A stretch of 64,000 bases of DNA from assembly GCA_030248135.1 (NCBI GenBank), contig JASANC010001184.1, positions 174,685 to 238,684 on the forward strand. Reading direction: 5' to 3'. Of this stretch, positions 26,567 through 35,696 are shown piece after piece. Positions within the stretch are counted from its first letter, which is position 1. Each line of letters starts with the position of its first letter. The stretch is from Theristus sp. LFF4_11 (taxonomy: Eukaryota; Nematoda; Chromadorea; Monhysterida; Xyalidae). The position numbers and the translations under genes were made by a program. The notes beneath the pieces are model-generated. The model saw only the letters and a list, made by a program, of their open reading frames with translations. It ran no database searches and was not told the DNA's origin.

Positions 26567-29500
26567 CTACGCCAGGATGATGCGCAGGGTGTTCGTGAAA
26601 CCGGCTCCTAAAGTGAAACTGTTCCATGTTTAACGAAATTGAGCACAAATGCGCATCATCAACTCAATCTGTACCTGTACAAAACTAGCGGTTTGTGATC
26701 TGTCAAAAATACAATGCACTGTGTTCAGAGGACTGAATAGAGCAGACTAGACTGAATGAGTAAAATCAATAACGAACCGGTGCGCCACCCGGTGACGACC
26801 ACCAGAAAGTCGCCGGTCTTGATGAATCCTCGCTCTTTGCCAATGTTCATGCCAAAGTCGATTCGACGATCCACATCGGTCGGCCAGTCAGGAAGGCGTT
26901 CTTCTGAAAAGACGTTCACACTTCACACATCGCAATACAGTTTGTCGTCCAGTCGCAAGTCTTCGCAACACATCAGCCGCACTGAAACGCACAAGCTTGA
27001 AGAACCAATCTGTTGTTTGCCCACAAATAGTAAAGTATGAAGTGCTACTATTCGAATGTGTCTGCTGACCGAAACGACGTCAACTGCTTGAAAACATGCG
27101 CTTCACGGGGAAAAACACGAAGAGATTTTTGGGCGATTTTAAACACGACATCATTTCAATCCGACAGGTTCGAATAAATATACAATCATTGTTATCATTG
27201 GCTTCCACAATCTGGACACGAAAATAATATTCAGCATGTTGATGAACATTTAATTTGGCTTCTGGCGTTTCGGTTTAATTCTTTACTATTTTTAGACTCA
27301 TCATTGGTTGATCAATCTCTGCGTTCTGATCTTTTCCCACCAAGCATAACAAGAACTGATTGTTAATAAAAGCCATGCAGAAACAGCACAAACTTATAAA
27401 GACACCGCAAACACAGTTTTCAAGGAAAGTCAACAAAATCAGCTCGGTATCAAACCGTGATAGAAAACTGGGAAGACTCCATAACGCAGGTGCATCTGTC
27501 GTGCTGCGATGCCGCTGCGTGTCACACCAATGATCGGGCACGGGGGCCGCAGACGCGAGATGAAACCGGCCGTTCTAAAAAAACACAAATACAAACACGC
27601 AATCAGCGCCAGTTCATAATTTGGATTTCTGAAACACCCACTAAACGAAAGTGAACAACAAAACGAAGCATAGTTTCTATGTCGATCATGCTGCACAGAT
27701 TAAAAACAGATGTTAGTTTGTTAGTTTTTTCATAACTGCATCAGTTAATGCACACAGGTCGGAATGGAAAATAACATAGAAACAGGAAAGCTGCAAACGC
27801 GAAACAACGCCAAAAGTACACTTTTCAAATTAGAGATCAAAATTTAGCCGGTTCAAGTCAAAAGAAAAAACATGATTGCGATACGTTTGTTTACTGAACA
27901 CAATATGCCATGCACAAAACCGACAACGCCTAGCGCAATGGTAATTAACACAAAGACAGCAGTTAGCTGTTCATTCATGCAACTCCGAATCGCCCAGATT
28001 AGCCACACATACACACCCAGTAGCAAGCACGGTGAAACCGCAGACGTCAGTTGACGTTTGCCAGGGACAAACGATCAGTCAGTGAGCGACTGTTCAGTGT
28101 CTTACCCTCGTAGCACACGGGGAACACGCCATAGTACAAATGCATCTGTCGCGACGATTTTGCGCGACGTGAAATGCCCATGATCGGACACGGCGGTCGG
28201 AACTGCGAAATGATGCGCGCTGTGCTGCAACCAGGGGGCGCGTTAAGCGGTTAAGCCAAACACACACAATGTCAGCAGCATTGTGCCGGTTAGCTGGTCA
28301 TTATGCACATTCTCGTTTCAATTAAAGGTATCAAAGAAATGCAATCGAGAACAGACAGTTGATCAACTTTCATATTAACCGGTCCCTGTTTTCATATTTT
28401 CAGGCTTACTTAAACCCACGAAACCGTTCATCAGTAACATTGTCAACCATCCACATGCATACGTTGCGAGAAAAATCACGCCTTTGCGAATCTTGTTTGG
28501 TCGTGGGAAAAGATGCTTTTTTGTATTCATGCGCTTATCGAGAGTAAGATTGAAAAAAGCAATGAGTTGTTAGCTGCCTCGGTGACTGTGACAATCAAAA
28601 GGCATGACCAAGGTCGTTGGCTGAATGCGCACTGCAAAGGCAAGAGCAAGAACAAAACTGCACTTGCAATGCTACTCAGCTACCCTCAGTTCGTTTCCAC
28701 TTGTATTGTGATATTTACCATTATCTGAAGCTCTTTGGAGCTTCGCACACGCAAAGAAAGTTATTAGAAATCACGAATCAAGTGAAACAGACAGAAAATA
28801 TCTCTCAATCTAACCAATTCAAACTTATTAGGTCGGTTGCGTGGCCTGTTAGTAAGCCAGCATCTGCGTCAATGTGTCTATTGGAACAATGAACACCGCA
28901 AAGAACGTAAGTGAAACGTGCCATCCTGAAAATAGCCGCAGGCGCAGTACACTTACGAACGGGGTACCAGACGGGGAACACGCCATAGTACAAGTGCATC
29001 TGGCGGGCAGCCCATTCATGCCGTGAGATGCCCATGATCGGACACGGCGGATGGCACGCACCGATCATGCGCGCTGTTCTGAACGCATTAACCGGCGTCG
29101 TAAACACTTTTACAATATTGCTGTTCGTAGTTGGTGGTTTTTAAGTTTTTGGTCGTCGCTTTAAAAGGTTGCATCATACAAGGCCTTATAAAGCAATACT
29201 GCTTTTCTCCAACACCTAGACGAATATGGTTGTTGGTCTCAGCGCCCCCTTCAAAGCGTCGTGTTGTTCTTTTTTCTCTAACGGAAAAGTCTAGAAGCAA
29301 AAATCAGCCGAGCACAAGCGTTAACGCCACACGTGGCACGTGCTGGTAGACCCCCGCACGCGGCATCATTCCATCGATCCAAGCTGTGCAAAATGCAGCA
29401 CAGCAGTGAGAAAAATATATTTCGTTGCAGCATTTATGAAGCCACACATACATTTTAGATACACACGCTTAGCAGTACGTTGACGCTGTGTGTTCACATT

Positions 29501-32500
29501 TAGGCCAGTTCCGGTATGTTTGTGTGTTCAACGCTGAAATTCTCACAAGCGATCAAGACCACACATATCACATCAGCTCAGGCAGCGTTTATTTTTCCAT
29601 TTCCAAACGCAAAGCTGCAGTAATTGGACACAACGTGCGTACGTGACAAAAATGACTCAACCAGCCGCACATCAGGCATATTTAAAAAAACACAGTTTTT
29701 GGGATCTGTTTTGCATTGTTTAGGTTGAAAAGTGGAAAACCAAAGACAGTGACAAATGTCCTGTACCACACACAAACGCCACACACACACACACACTCAG
29801 CTGAACACGATCGGTACAAGCACAGCTAAGCTGTTGTTTCCTTTTCTTCCCCTCGCCAGCCAGGTTAGGCTGCTGTTGGTTAAAAGACGCACGTTTTTTC
29901 TCAGCACAAAAGTCGTCGAGCTAGAATACAACTTTACACACGGCGCCGACCCAGCCGAACGTTTCACTCGTGCACACAGTGCAACGAGCGTCATTCGACA
30001 ACCGATGCGCTATGAAATTTTGCTGCAAGAGAAACTGCGCTGCTACGATAGAAAATTAACTGCTGAAACAAAAATGAGACTTTGCGAGGCGTATTTTGCT
30101 GTTGCTGGGCAAAACACACATTCGCTTAAGCGCATTATCGGTTGTTGTTTCACTGCAGAAAAATAGATCCATCAAACGATTATTTACCAAAACCGGCAGT
30201 GATTGCCAAAACAACAACAGTCAGCAACGGATGAATGCAAAGAGCGGAAAGGTGTGATGCAAAGAACGTTGTGTTGATTGGCGTTGCCATCATGCCTGGC
30301 CAGCGCCAATCAACCACATCAACCAAGTGGCCCCGCGCACGGCTGCAGTCTGCTGCGCTCACCGTCCAGTTGTCGTGATCAGCAGGATGGCGCTCGCATG
30401 GCAACTGACGGCAGCTGACGTCGCTGCAATGGCGATCGTGTGCGCCGTGTCGGTCGGGCGTGGCGTGATACGCTGCAGCTCCTCGAAGTAGCGCGTGTGG
30501 TAGACGGCTGCCTCGGCCTCGCGACAGATCTGCAATCACAACACAACACTCAGAGTGACGCGCGTCACCGTCGAGCAGCGGCTGCCAGTTTCCACCTCTG
30601 CTCAGGCCACAACTGTGCTGCAACGTGCTGACTCTGCCACGCTGCACGGCACATTGGCGCCAGTTCAGGCTGCGTGCTCATGGCGGCACATTCATCACGT
30701 TCTCCAGCGCACCGTCGCACACGCATCAGATAAAATGTTGCACTGCCCACCGGCGAAGTTTAAATCCGGAAACGCAAATCAGAATGTCCCAGAGAAAGCA
30801 CGAAATGAGCCGAACCGAAACAGACATACGTGATGCATGATGCGCACGGACTCGAGCGGGTAGTCGCCCTTTGCGGTCTCGCCACTGAGCATCACACAGT
30901 CGGCGCCGTCGAGCACTGCGTTCGCGACGTCACTCGCTGTGAACAACACAAACTGAAGCTCGTGCCAGAGCACACAACAGCGACTTGTGAACCGATCGCA
31001 CAGAAATATTCAGCACAACGCCAAAAAACGCGACTTTTTCCATATACGAATGATAGAAACGGGCAATACAGAGCACAGTCTGACTTTCAGCGCGCGTCGG
31101 CCGCGGCTTGTCGGTCATCGACTCGAGCATCTGCGTCGCGCAGATCACTGGCTTGCCAGCCTTGTTGCACTTTGCGATCAATGTCTTCTGTGCAAGGAAC
31201 ACCTTCTCTGGCGGAATCTCGATGCCCATGTCGCCGCGCGCCACCATCACACCGTCAGACTCTTCGATGATGTCGTCGGAGCTGAGAAAAACACGCTCAA
31301 CAGCACTGTTGCTTGTTGCTTTTGTTAGCGGTCATAATTGACATGCAAGTGTAGTGGTAGTGTAGTTGAACATGACGTCACATTTGAGTTTCATGTTCGC
31401 AATTTAGCTTGTGTGACTGTTTATAACTGTCTTCAACTTTGATGCCTCCAGCAAGAACAACGCAACAACAGCGACCTATCGTTGCGCGCTCACTTTGTGA
31501 TTCCCTCCTGGTTCTCAATCTTCGAGATGATCTTGATGTCCTTGCCCTTTTCGCCGAGTATCTCGCGTATGGCGCGCACGCCGTCGCCGGTGCGAATGAA
31601 CGATGCGAACACAATGTCGACGCCCTGCTCGACGCCGAACTGCAGGTCTGCCTTGTCCTTCTCGGACACCGCCGGCAAGTCCACTGGTGTGCCCGGCAAG
31701 TTGACGCCTTTGCGACTGCCGAGTTTGCCGCCGTTCTCCACCTCACAGATCACTGCTTTGTCGTCTGCACAGAAACGTTCAGTGCTTGCTTGGTGAACTG
31801 ACCAGTGAGCCACTTCTCTATGTCTAATGAATGATGGCCAGCATTGAATGCAGAAAAGCCCGCTGCACAACTCGGCTGCTTTGATTGTGCTCAGCCAGAT
31901 TCAAAGACAGATCAAGCGGTCACGTGACTAACAACGCAGCCGCTGTAAGCGACCAACATTCAAACGACACACACCGATTTCCTCCACAATCAAACTGATC
32001 AATCCGTCGTCCACAAAGACACGCGAGCCAGGACTGAGCACTTTGACGATGTTCTTGTAGTCGACGTAGAGGTTGGTCGCCGTGCACGAGTCTTTGTACG
32101 AGTCCTCCGTGGTCATGCGGATCTTGTCGCCCTTTTTCAGCTCCACTATCGCGTTCGTGCCCTAAGATCGCTCAAAAATTGACTAAAAACAAAAAACGCC
32201 AAACACCTGAAGGACAGTTCAAAAGTTGCTTTAATAATAGTAAAAATGCATTTGACTTTTCTGCAAAACAAACCAACCGCTGCGAGAACGCCGGTTCGAA
32301 TCTCTGGGCCTTTTGTGTCCAGTGCGATCGCCACGATGCGAGGCTCGTGGAAATTCTTCACAGCCTGGCGAATGTTCGCAATCGTTCCACCGTGGTACTG
32401 TAATGTAAATACAGTTTTTATAGGACGATATTTGGGTCCATATTTACGCGATACTTACAGCCCAAAATCCTTATTTATGCTCTGAGAATCGCTGTAAGAA

Positions 32501-33286
32501 ATGGTATTTTTTTGTAAAACTAAAAAGATTATCACCTCGTGCGTTCCGTGGCTAAAATTCAAGCGAGCAATGTTCATGCCGGCCAATATCATATCCTCCA
32601 ACATTTTGACGTCACGACTGGCCGGACCTGAAAATATAAATGTAAAACTGTACTACAAAGGCACACAGTTCACTCCGCCGAGTATATGCAGATATCACCA
32701 AGCAACCGTGAACCGACCGATGGTGCAGATGATGCCTGTTTTTCTGACGAGATGCGGTTCATCTTGAATGTTCAAGTTGGTCAAGTGCTCCAAATAGGTG
32801 GCGTGCGGCACCATTTGCAAACGTTGCACCTGCAGCGCAATCATCAACGCCATCAGCAACACAAAGCCCATCGGCACAGAATCACTTTTTGACATAGCCT
32901 ATTTTCCAGAGTCTAGTATCTGATTTCTGGTTCTGCGACACAATACACGCGTTCTATAAGAAATCAGTGGCATTCTGCACGCGGCAGTTCAAAATTGCTA
33001 AGTGACCCGGATCGCTGAGATGAGATACAGAATCACTAATGCAAGCTTGAATTGCCACATCAAGCTTATATAGAGCCTAACTTGCCATCAACGTCTGCTG
33101 CCGTGTTGTGCCGCGTAAACATCAAAAAAGCGCGTGCCGAACCTGTCTGAAGTATTCGCCCTGGTGCTCCTCCTCCAACGTACGTCGCCGTTGCATGTGT
33201 CCACGTCGTTGTGCCACCAATTTTGCGCCACTCGCCGACAGCTGGTTCGGCTCCGGACCCTTGTGCAACGTCACCACCGGCTGCAT
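26567..33286 (-). CDS. PK: Pyruvate kinase with three alternative C-domain exons
   Basis: Last step of glycolysis: phosphoenolpyruvate + ADP to pyruvate + ATP, cytosolic tetramer. Exons, 5' to 3' on minus: 33286-33143, 32829-32718, 32627-32536, 32397-32278, 32161-31975, 31764-31494, 31281-31085, 30936-30830, 30529-30363, then one of 29078-28957, 28224-28106 or 27574-27456, then 26903-26778 and 26607-26567. Phases agree throughout; 560-561 aa. Signatures: [31 protein letters not shown] (K+/Mg2+ and substrate); [16 protein letters not shown] with catalytic Lys about 300; [12 protein letters not shown] (metal Asp about 326); [26 protein letters not shown]; final TGWRT plus [12 protein letters not shown]. 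The first exon is open upstream to a good acceptor at 33325/33326, so the protein may begin further upstream. The gene is convergent with MRPL3. Confidence 0.95.
27456..27574 (-). other. PK: Pyruvate kinase alternative exon C (119 nt)
   Basis: Acceptor ttttttag after a long pyrimidine tract; donor gtttgata, weaker than those of A and B. Reads (R)[18 protein letters not shown], then [27 protein letters not shown] is closest to the usual pyruvate kinase PIIAVTR, so C may be the ancestral form. Confidence 0.9.
28106..28224 (-). other. PK: Pyruvate kinase alternative exon B (119 nt)
   Basis: Acceptor ggttgcag, donor gtaagaca. Reads (R)[18 protein letters not shown], then [20 protein letters not shown]. 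Same start phase 2 and end phase 1 as A and C. Differs from A mainly in the first third and at the RRAKSS stretch. Confidence 0.9.
28957..29078 (-). other. PK: Pyruvate kinase alternative exon A (122 nt)
   Basis: Acceptor gcgttcag, donor gtaagtgt. It completes the split Arg codon (CG|A), then reads [18 protein letters not shown] and ends [18 protein letters not shown]. Corresponds to the mammalian segment after the FBP loop (ARYRPRAPIIAVTR through RQAHLYRGIFPVL). Exon A has CHPP where exons B and C have an RPP motif, and one extra codon at its 3' end. Confidence 0.9.
32459..32491 (-). other. PK: Candidate 33-nt poison cassette exon in pyruvate kinase
   Basis: Within intron 3 (minus), preceded by tttcttacag and followed by gtaagtat, both near-consensus. 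It would join in phase 0 and read RFSEHK then TAA, truncating the protein after the GTHE motif. Predicted only from splice-site quality; it could be chance. Confidence 0.35.
32830..32895 (-). other. PK: Possible alternative first exon / N-terminus of pyruvate kinase
   Basis: The frame of exon 2 stays open upstream of its acceptor to an ATG at 32895, encoding MSKSDSVP then a hydrophobic run [13 protein letters not shown]. An internal promoter here would give pyruvate kinase a membrane- or signal-like N-terminus. The acceptor gcgctgcag lies at the end of this stretch, so it may simply be intron. Confidence 0.35.
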
Positions 33287-33325: not shown

Positions 33326-33938
33326 CTGAAACTTCGGTTCACTTTTGTATCGCTTTTGACAACACAAATGGTCTTCGGTGCTAATTGGTCGCACCCACCA
33401 TCAGACGTCAAAAACAAGCAAGCTTCAGAAACAAGCAAACTGTATTTCAGAAAATGGTATTAGTAAAAAATTTGGTGTTGAATGTTGCAGACTTTGTGGG
33501 ACGGTTGGAAGCAAAATAAAATTCCCAACTGCCCGAAAAAAATTTGTCTGTCTGTCTGAATTTACAATGAACACTCAGCGAAACACTCAAGGACTTTTGC
33601 TCAGTACAAGCAAAACACTGCGTACGATCACACAAAGAAATGACAACGTGAGTAATTCAACAACTAACACAAAAGAAACACAAAAAAGAAGGAGTCAATT
33701 GAAAAACGTGGCTTTCATACTAGAAGACAGACAGATAATATACAAACATAACTAGCCAATTGACCCGAGCGTATGTGGCTTAATCAATGCCAAGCCTTTT
33801 TGGTGAAGTGGCATTGACTTAGAAAGAAAAAACAGTAACGTTTACTGAATAATAACCCTGAAGAAAATTTTCCTTGTGCTGCCGTGAAGTCGCCTACAAT
33901 ACAATATTTTTTAATGTATTTAAATAAATAAAAAATGC
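33326..33938. other. Upstream of pyruvate kinase exon 1, no exon identified
   Basis: Probably contains a further 5' exon or the promoter of the pyruvate kinase gene. No clear splice partner for the acceptor at 33326 was found. A short plus-strand ORF here is unremarkable. Confidence 0.4.
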
Positions 33939-34490
33939 GAAGTTTATGATTTTGCTATTTTTACCCGTTCACCCTAACCGAAGGCAAGCCTTTTTGTAAG
34001 TGAAGTAAAATTGAATAAAAAAATATAAAAACTAACGTTTTTTAATTTACCCGTTTTAAAAAGCTAATGCTTTTTTACACGTTTACCTAAGCCAAGCCTT
34101 TTTTGTAAAGTGAAAATGCGAAGTTTATGATTCTGCCATTTTTTACCCGTTCACCCTAACCTAAGTCAAGCCTTTTTGTATGTAAAGTAAGATTGAATAA
34201 AAAACATAAAAATTAACGTTTTTTACAATTACCCGATTTAAAAAGCTAATGCTTCTTTTACCCGTTTACCTAAGCCAAGCCTTTTTGCAAAGTGAAAATG
34301 CGAAGTTAATGATTTTGCTATTTTTAACGTTCACCCTAACCTAAGTCAAGCCTTTTTGTAAGTTAAGTAAGATTGAATAAAAAATATAAAAATCAACGTT
34401 TTTTCATAAAAAATACCCGTTTTAAAAAGCTAATGCTTCTTTTACCCGGTGACCCTAACATAAGCCAAGCCTTTTTTGTAAAGTGAACAT
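33939..34490. repeat. Tandem repeat, ~180-bp unit, about 3 copies
   Basis: gcgaagtttatgattttgc (33939), gcgaagtttatgattctgcc (34118) and gcgaagttaatgattttgc (34301) mark successive units. Each contains acccgttcaccctaacc, aagcctttttgta, aaaaagctaatgcttc and aagccaagcctttt. The same aagccaagcctttttg motif reappears near 42,013, 49,290 and 57,665. Confidence 0.8.
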
Positions 34491-35696
34491 GCATAGAAGA
34501 AACAAAAAAGTGACGTTTATAATTTCGTTTTGCAGTTTTGGTTCTTTTTACCCGTTCACCCCAACATGACCCAAACATGTTGCAAAGTGAAAATGAATGG
34601 TAAATACCATTTCGACCCAATTAAAAAACTAACTTTTTTCAGAGGCAGTTTTGTTACATCTTTCGCAGTCGCTCGTCAAGTTTTGAGCAGCAAAAATTGC
34701 CAGTTGCCCATCGTGCGTTACGTTGAAATTATCGCTCATAACCACGGAGTATCAATTTGAAAATGAAACATGGAGTATCAATTTCAATGAAATTTACTTG
34801 TTTTGAACCCAAAGTGCAACTTGCAATGCCGATGTCGATGTGCGTTTTGCAACCCGATTTTTAAAAACAAAAAAGTTCAAACTTTTTTCAAAGACGGTTT
34901 TGTTACATCTTTCCCAGTCTATCATCAAGTTTTGATCAGCCACGCTTCCATTTACCTATGCTGCGCTGAACTGTCTCTGTTGACCAAAGAGTATCATGAT
35001 GACTGCAGCTATGAAGAGCGACGTTTTGAGAAAACAATCTCAACTGGTGTTAATAAAAAAATAGGTTAAGGAAATTGAGATGGAGTTTTCTTAAATAGCA
35101 AAAATGGGCGCCAATTCAAATTGCAAAAAAGTGCCACACACGCACACACGCACAGACACTTTGTAAATTTAATAATATAGATGCTAGTCAATAAATAGGC
35201 GTTTTGTATGATGCCCAATCAACAATGTACACACTCACTTTACCTTCAGCCTCAGCGTCTCCTCCAATCAGACGTTGAAAATGAAAAAAAACACTTCAAA
35301 ACGATTTCTGTTGTTTCGATGCAACGACTGACAAACGGTATAATGGAAAGAAACAAAAAAACTTTTCAGAGCTGTACAGAGCTGGCAGACAGACTAAGGC
35401 ATTAAAAAGAAACCGAAAAGCGATGATGACGCTATCAGTTTTTATGCGGGTGAAAACTAATGAATGAGCGTATAAGAAACCCTCAACATCGCACAAGCAA
35501 AGCAACAAACAATTAATGACATTATCAAAAAGTCAAAAACCGACCATGGTGCTCAGATCAGTAGCTCGTTGATTTTTTGAACAAATTCCGCAACAATGCT
35601 TATATGGACTGAGCAGCGATGAAAAGGCGCGTCTGCAAGAAGCCAGGCCAGCACTGCTCCCACTTTGGTTGCACTCTGAAAAACACATACTTGCAT
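34491..35696. other. Non-coding; diverged duplicate segment
   Basis: 34,620-34,700 (ttttgttacatctttcgcag) and 34,880-34,950 (ttttgttacatctttcccag) share a ~60-bp degenerate segment, so part of this stretch is an old duplication. No gene supported. Confidence 0.45.

Follow-up and report, generated by a model that had tools for sequence, protein, structure and literature searches.

The window analysed here, a stretch of 64,000 nucleotides, carries one pyruvate kinase (PK) gene on its minus strand, which was also the sole PK locus reported by a Pfam profile search of the whole 159-Mb assembly, the genome-wide match counts being lower bounds. For PF00224, six exon matches above the cut-off were obtained (best 2.8e-34), all of them at the PK locus, and the three matches of PF02887 (PK_C) above the cut-off genome-wide were the exons termed A, B and C in the following. 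Both models used to recognise the PK family were matched in this way and are ordered along one gene. The gene model was built by hand and runs from 32829 to 26567 on the minus strand with 13 exons including three alternatives and GT-AG at all junctions; it starts at the exon 32718..32829, and the part with the start codon lies upstream, outside the model. As modelled, without the N-terminal exon, the isoforms have 513 (A), 512 (B) and 512 (C) residues, and each is open without internal stop down to the terminal TAG. The protein P0002 is 79% identical to the window PK over 99% of the sequence. In a tree of the PK core, the window sequence groups with P0002 (99/97; 80% identity) and then with P0009 (96/87), and the remaining 32 nematode rows form the adjacent group (94/85). 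A 182-base tandem repeat is present in three copies (33932-34492) upstream of the gene as modelled. The exons are the following:

32718..32829, minus strand: first modelled PK coding exon, LEHL...GIICTI, from the in-frame GT-AG model
32536..32627, minus strand: PK coding exon, from the in-frame gene model
32278..32397, minus strand: PK coding exon, from the in-frame gene model
31975..32161, minus strand: PK coding exon, from the in-frame gene model
31494..31764, minus strand: PK coding exon, from Pfam PF00224 and the gene model
31085..31281, minus strand: PK coding exon, from Pfam PF00224 and the gene model
30830..30936, minus strand: PK coding exon, from Pfam PF00224 and the gene model
30363..30529, minus strand: shared exon 5' of the trio, 167 nt, closing on two bases of the Arg codon of TTTGR, from the gene model
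28957..29078, minus strand: alternative exon A, 122 nt, 41 residues and (Q), PK_C 9.0e-7, acceptor ttcag, donor gtaagt, in frame
28106..28224, minus strand: alternative exon B, 119 nt, 40 residues and (E), PK_C 2.6e-8, acceptor tgcag, donor gtaaga, in frame
27456..27574, minus strand: alternative exon C, 119 nt, 40 residues and (E), PK_C 5.0e-6, acceptor tttag, donor gtttga, in frame
26778..26903, minus strand: shared exon 3' of the trio, opening with a stretch of 13 residues and reading on to VTGWRT, from the gene model
26567..26607, minus strand: last coding exon with the stop TAG, from the gene model

An earlier note on this DNA had described A, B and C as three tandem alternative exons for one segment of the enzyme, and its coordinates proved to be exact, including those of the junctions at the upstream exon end (30363) and the downstream exon start (26903). 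All three exons can be joined to the same neighbouring exons on either side with the frame kept. The motifs described as shared were also found, namely PPCPI in A, B and C and a second one read as 12 residues in A and 13 in C. Properties of a mutually exclusive exon cluster are seen at the sequence level: the exons are homologous and arranged in tandem between the same two constitutive exons, each has its own GT-AG sites, and they have identical phases and near-equal lengths (122, 119 and 119 nt, all 2 mod 3). Exon-versus-exon matches inside the window gave E-values of 4e-16 to 9e-14, a similarity far beyond chance. When the eight possible inclusion combinations were modelled, A, B or C alone led to the natural stop; inclusion of none, AB, AC, BC or ABC (five of five non-single combinations) led to a premature stop 69-192 nt before the last exon junction. 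Since single inclusion alone reaches the natural stop, just one-at-a-time inclusion makes enzyme, and we infer that the premature-stop products are degraded by NMD. Very probably, the trio is a mutually exclusive cassette.

The window contains one copy of the shared exon that precedes the trio. An Arg467-type fourth exon (see below) was not found in the window with the Plectus and C. elegans versions as query, nor in the genome with the Plectus version; meaningful E-values were obtained for A, B and C alone, plus the next exon in the genome search. An assembly or haplotype duplicate was ruled out as the source of the three copies, as the exons are 60-76% identical at the DNA level over 38 shared codons, the flanking introns are unrelated and no further genome copies were reported. 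Among these introns there are short weak matches at most, and the best match between different introns has an E-value of 0.056.

For placing the segment in the enzyme, PKM numbering was taken from PDB chain 8x4r (PKM, 531 residues), in which chain residues 436-528 correspond to query residues 1-93 at equal lengths. As the earlier note had it, the switched segment begins at the Arg of the TGR loop, its first residue being PKM R436. It spans from R436-S437 of the fructose-bisphosphate (FBP) site to H464-P471 of the amino-acid site. Between PKM 436 and 473, A, B and C agree at 22 positions and vary at 16. The constant ones include 436 and 437 on the FBP side and 464, 470 and 471 on the amino-acid side, and all three exons differ from each other at seven positions (440, 443, 444, 456, 457, 458 and 473). 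In PKM2, the exchange S437Y abolishes FBP binding and H464A abolishes serine binding (PMC4072945); two further articles ascribe a role in FBP signalling to R436 (PMC10004559) and count the main-chain carbonyl of P471 as part of the amino-acid pocket (PMC7979715). Position 443 corresponds to PKLR 486 (PKLR chain 9w4q, 574 residues, matching from 479), and R486W is the name of a solved erythrocyte PK mutant structure. At position 467, A, B and C all have Tyr, and 165 of 186 segments extracted from the matches listed have Arg. In the same 9w4q-based numbering, the human counterpart of this position is PKLR Arg510, a disease residue, for which the exchange R510Q, according to PMC4677815, leaves kinetics and regulation as in the wild type and lowers thermal stability. 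A literature search aimed at PK-deficiency mutations within the segment gave no match, and R510Q came from a broader one.

The segments were collected from 240 listed proteins of two homology searches, of which 194 gave 197 segments, 187 of them with 39 residues; the set of 186 consists of the 39-residue segments minus the shortened first copy of P0063. As the homologue database was clustered at 90% identity and the best 120 proteins per search were listed (one search scored 7989), isoforms within one species are mostly hidden in this set. A search with 51 residues around exon A gave one candidate and no hit, which on so short a query does not count as absence. Thirteen of the 21 segments without Arg467 are from Steinernema (4), Trichinella (4), Trichuris (2), Plectus, Meloidogyne and the tapeworm Rodentolepis. 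The four Steinernema versions among them (P0003, P0029, P0049 and P0062) have Gln where PKM has H464, and judged from this exchange they may lack amino-acid sensing. Non-Arg467 versions also occur in P0002, P0005, P0009 and P0042, whose contigs (1841-2377 bases) contain them in full-length ORFs, as spliced transcripts would.

Two versions of the same segment were observed in other nematodes. In Plectus sambesii, the proteins P0125 and P0126 (A0A914X5H6/A0A914X667) are identical at 220 of 241 aligned residues, and all 21 mismatches as well as all gaps are inside the switched segment. Three of the 194 proteins contain two segment copies, i.e. P0003 of Steinernema hermaphroditum, P0049 of S. carpocapsae and P0063 of Trichinella; most likely, these result from gene-model errors that fused a pair of alternative exons. 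Of the Trichinella copies, the one placed first clusters with Trichuris muris (96/85) and the other with Trichuris suis (100/100), and by this cross-genus pairing both versions appear to be older than the split between Trichuris and Trichinella. The two Trichuris species show one version each, and no single Trichuris protein with both versions was found among the matches listed. For C. elegans, one version (P0039) was found among the matches listed, and a second version may exist. In the window PK, Plectus, Steinernema and Trichinella, the segment starts directly after TGR. The earlier note had taken this switch for an independently evolved way to tune allostery or tetramer contacts. The position itself is not private to the species, as Plectus, Steinernema and Trichinella have two versions and the two Trichuris species one each. 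From these comparisons, the switched position can be regarded as a nematode feature, which appears here in three-exon form.

AlphaFold models of both Plectus fragments show the order helix 146-153, strand 160-164, helix 167-173 and strand 179-183 across the segment. For the segment block, pLDDT was 91-94 in P0125 and 91-95 up to residue 180 in P0126, with 76 in the following block. The N-terminal half, which is cut off in these fragments, was modelled poorly, and the overall mean pLDDT was 73.8 (P0125) and 71.9 (P0126). The best PDB match of P0125 was human PK with a TM of 0.57 by query length and an rmsd of 13.4, so that the C-domain part alone is usable. As predicted structures, both Plectus versions fit the PK fold, and the models are silent on a functional difference.

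Regarding the origin of the trio, it may have arisen by local duplication in its own lineage, in which case the switch would not be homologous to the Plectus, Steinernema and Trichinella switches, and the same position would have been hit repeatedly. We regard this as having somewhat less than an even chance, and it is compatible with the explanation preferred below. It is in line with the sharing of PI(M/I)G, RQMHL and Tyr467 by A, B and C, and also with the segment tree (39 columns, 46 rows chosen from the matches), in which A, B and C as one clade were neither shown nor rejected (p-AU 0.483). At its deepest split, which is weakly supported (57/77), this tree divides the non-Arg467 from the mostly Arg467 versions; Plectus version 1 stands on the other side of it, apart from the other non-Arg467 versions, which again suits repeated origins. 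However, the non-Arg467 versions of the window, Steinernema and the Trichinellida lie together on one side of the same split, weak as it is over 39 columns, and TGR immediately precedes the segment in every case.

For the function of the trio, we consider it highly probable that it is a frame-enforced mutually exclusive three-exon cassette retuning allostery or tetramer contacts, where regulated splicing, NMD and the functional effect are what we infer from the sequence. In this explanation, the splicing machinery would pick one of A, B and C, the reading frame would enforce the single choice, and any other exon number would give a premature stop with expected destruction of the mRNA. Each choice would supply the helix-strand-helix-strand block of the C domain that reaches from the FBP loop to the amino-acid pocket, with the ligand-site residues at both ends of the block kept and many helix residues in between changed. 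The forms would then share the same chemistry and differ in allosteric coupling or tetramer stability, and tissue, stage or oxygen supply might decide which isoform is made. The enzyme thus probably comes in three tunable forms.

Constancy of the ligand-site positions counts against retuning, since the isoforms might be functionally equivalent. The exons could accordingly be expressed alternatively with equivalent protein forms, the trio serving to regulate the amount of PK via premature stops and mRNA decay. Besides the constant positions 436, 437, 464 and 471, the premature stop in every non-single combination agrees with such a role, but the seven positions that differ across all three exons and the conservation of each of two distinct versions across Trichuris and Trichinella do not, and we consider a role in PK amount with equivalent proteins to be unlikely.

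Selection on the three exons was analysed over 38 co-linear codons (114 bases) per exon pair. A and B differ at 27 of the 114 bases (71% amino-acid identity), A and C at 46 (63%) and B and C at 39 (63%), with third codon positions being the most changed. Pairwise pN/pS values were 0.17/0.46 for A-B, 0.29/0.73 for A-C and 0.20/0.75 for B-C, and in neutral simulations (six runs of 5000 each) at most 0.4% retained as many residues without a stop. The trio has diverged under overall purifying selection. As synonymous change is near saturation for A-C and B-C, C has been kept long, and its separation is taken to be the oldest one. When C is used as outgroup, A receives 12 changes (3, 4 and 5 at the first, second and third codon positions) and B receives 5 (2, 0 and 3). 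Exon A could be relaxing or adapting, its own changes being without proof of constraint. That one or two exons are used and the remainder, most likely A or C, are decaying duplicates would fit the missing third-position bias of the changes in A and the donor of C, the weakest of the three, but is quite improbable given that frame, phase, splice sites and ligand-site positions are kept in all three exons, pairwise change is constrained, the near-saturated synonymous change to C means long retention and A has the donor gtaagt.

In comparison with known systems, the frame-enforced cassette proposed here is located next to a familiar one. The PKM1/PKM2 pair is the standard example of splicing that retunes a metabolic enzyme, and the exon switched in mammals is the one that the earlier note places at PKM 389-433. 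That the trio directly follows this exon, as stated in the earlier note, was borne out by the upstream exon, whose 167 nt (55.7 codons) compare with the 56 residues each of PKM exons 9 and 10 given in PMC8052847. The mammalian switch comprises 21 residue changes in a two-helix region at subunit contacts, according to a review (PMC4059968). The proposed cassette resembles it in belonging to the same gene family and in placing its mutually exclusive exons in the C domain of PK. However, in PKM1/PKM2 (exon 9/exon 10) the 56-residue exon is switched with two choices, whereas in the window this exon is single-copy and the next one, beginning at PKM R436, is tripled. In Plectus, Steinernema, Trichinella and Trichuris PK, the same segment with the same start occurs in two versions instead of three; Arg467 is present in one of the two versions and absent from the other in Plectus and Steinernema, whereas all three window exons have Tyr467. 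The closest published analogue in kind that was found is exon 6a/6e of coq-2 (PMC7434440), which likewise represents equal-length mutually exclusive exons altering a nematode metabolic enzyme, although it is another gene, in which the enzyme core near the substrates is remodelled in connection with rhodoquinone. In Daphnia pulex, PK is also subject to alternative splicing, but there, according to PMC7318467, a single exon (exon 9) is skipped under copper, in contrast to the choice among homologous exons proposed here.

Molluscan PKM-like isoforms of Saccostrea echinata and Mytilus trossulus show C-domain differences like the window PK, but these lie after the segment and extend through the C-terminus, in the Mytilus pair also with differences at the N-terminus. 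The pairs P0080/P0089 (Saccostrea echinata) and P0086/P0103 (Mytilus trossulus) are the same up to the segment end, the Mytilus N-terminus apart; P0085/P0094 of Crassostrea angulata/gigas have the same pattern, but come from two species. A molluscan switch at the same exon was ruled out for the same-species pairs of Saccostrea and Mytilus, in which the differences start after the segment; probably, the molluscan isoforms arise from alternative last exons. Three consecutive stretches of the PK C domain might have become alternative independently in different animals, i.e. 389-433 in vertebrates, 436 to about 475 in nematodes and the next stretch in molluscs, and the nematode switch including residue 467 might shift PK between aerobic and anaerobic (PEP-sparing) operation, as coq-2 does for quinones, with three settings in the present species. 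We put this forward as a speculation that is more doubtful than probable.

Among the papers listed, which in three of the listings were 20 of 41, 20 of 900 and 25 of 52, titles and abstract openings yielded no paper on a nematode PK exon switch, and earlier notice in C. elegans exon lists is possible. Pyruvate kinase is absent from the main texts of PMC3923563 and PMC7434440, which deal with exon choice in C. elegans or across species, and of PMC13247117. A second PK switch in another phylum, adjoining the mammalian one, would provide three natural versions of the stretch linking two allosteric sites, and thereby a ready comparison set for signal transmission in pyruvate kinase. It also suggests that worms, parasitic ones included, may use splicing to set the flux through the PEP branch point, of which no test was found in the literature listings searched.

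As to how one exon might be chosen, the introns around the trio measure 1284, 732, 531 and 552 nt, and with at least 531 nt each, crowding is unlikely as exclusion mechanism. A search for competing RNA pairing gave four inverted pairs of at least 14 nt, none of them exon-specific. An 18-nt pair with 78% complementarity between the downstream and upstream introns (27053-27070 and 30107-30124) would loop out the trio and may be due to chance. The following element was ranked second of 107 scanned windows:

30262..30325, minus strand: stable hairpin (-27 kcal/mol, z -3.5) in the intron, bases 38-101 past the shared 5' splice site

Its one genome match was itself, and it is a lead only for the exclusion mechanism. 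The donors of A (gtaagt), B (gtaaga) and C (gtttga) differ as listed above, and the acceptor of C is T-rich. Unusual donors are also present in shared PK introns (gtcggt, gttggt, gtcaga and gttcgt), so that weak donors are normal in the window PK gene.
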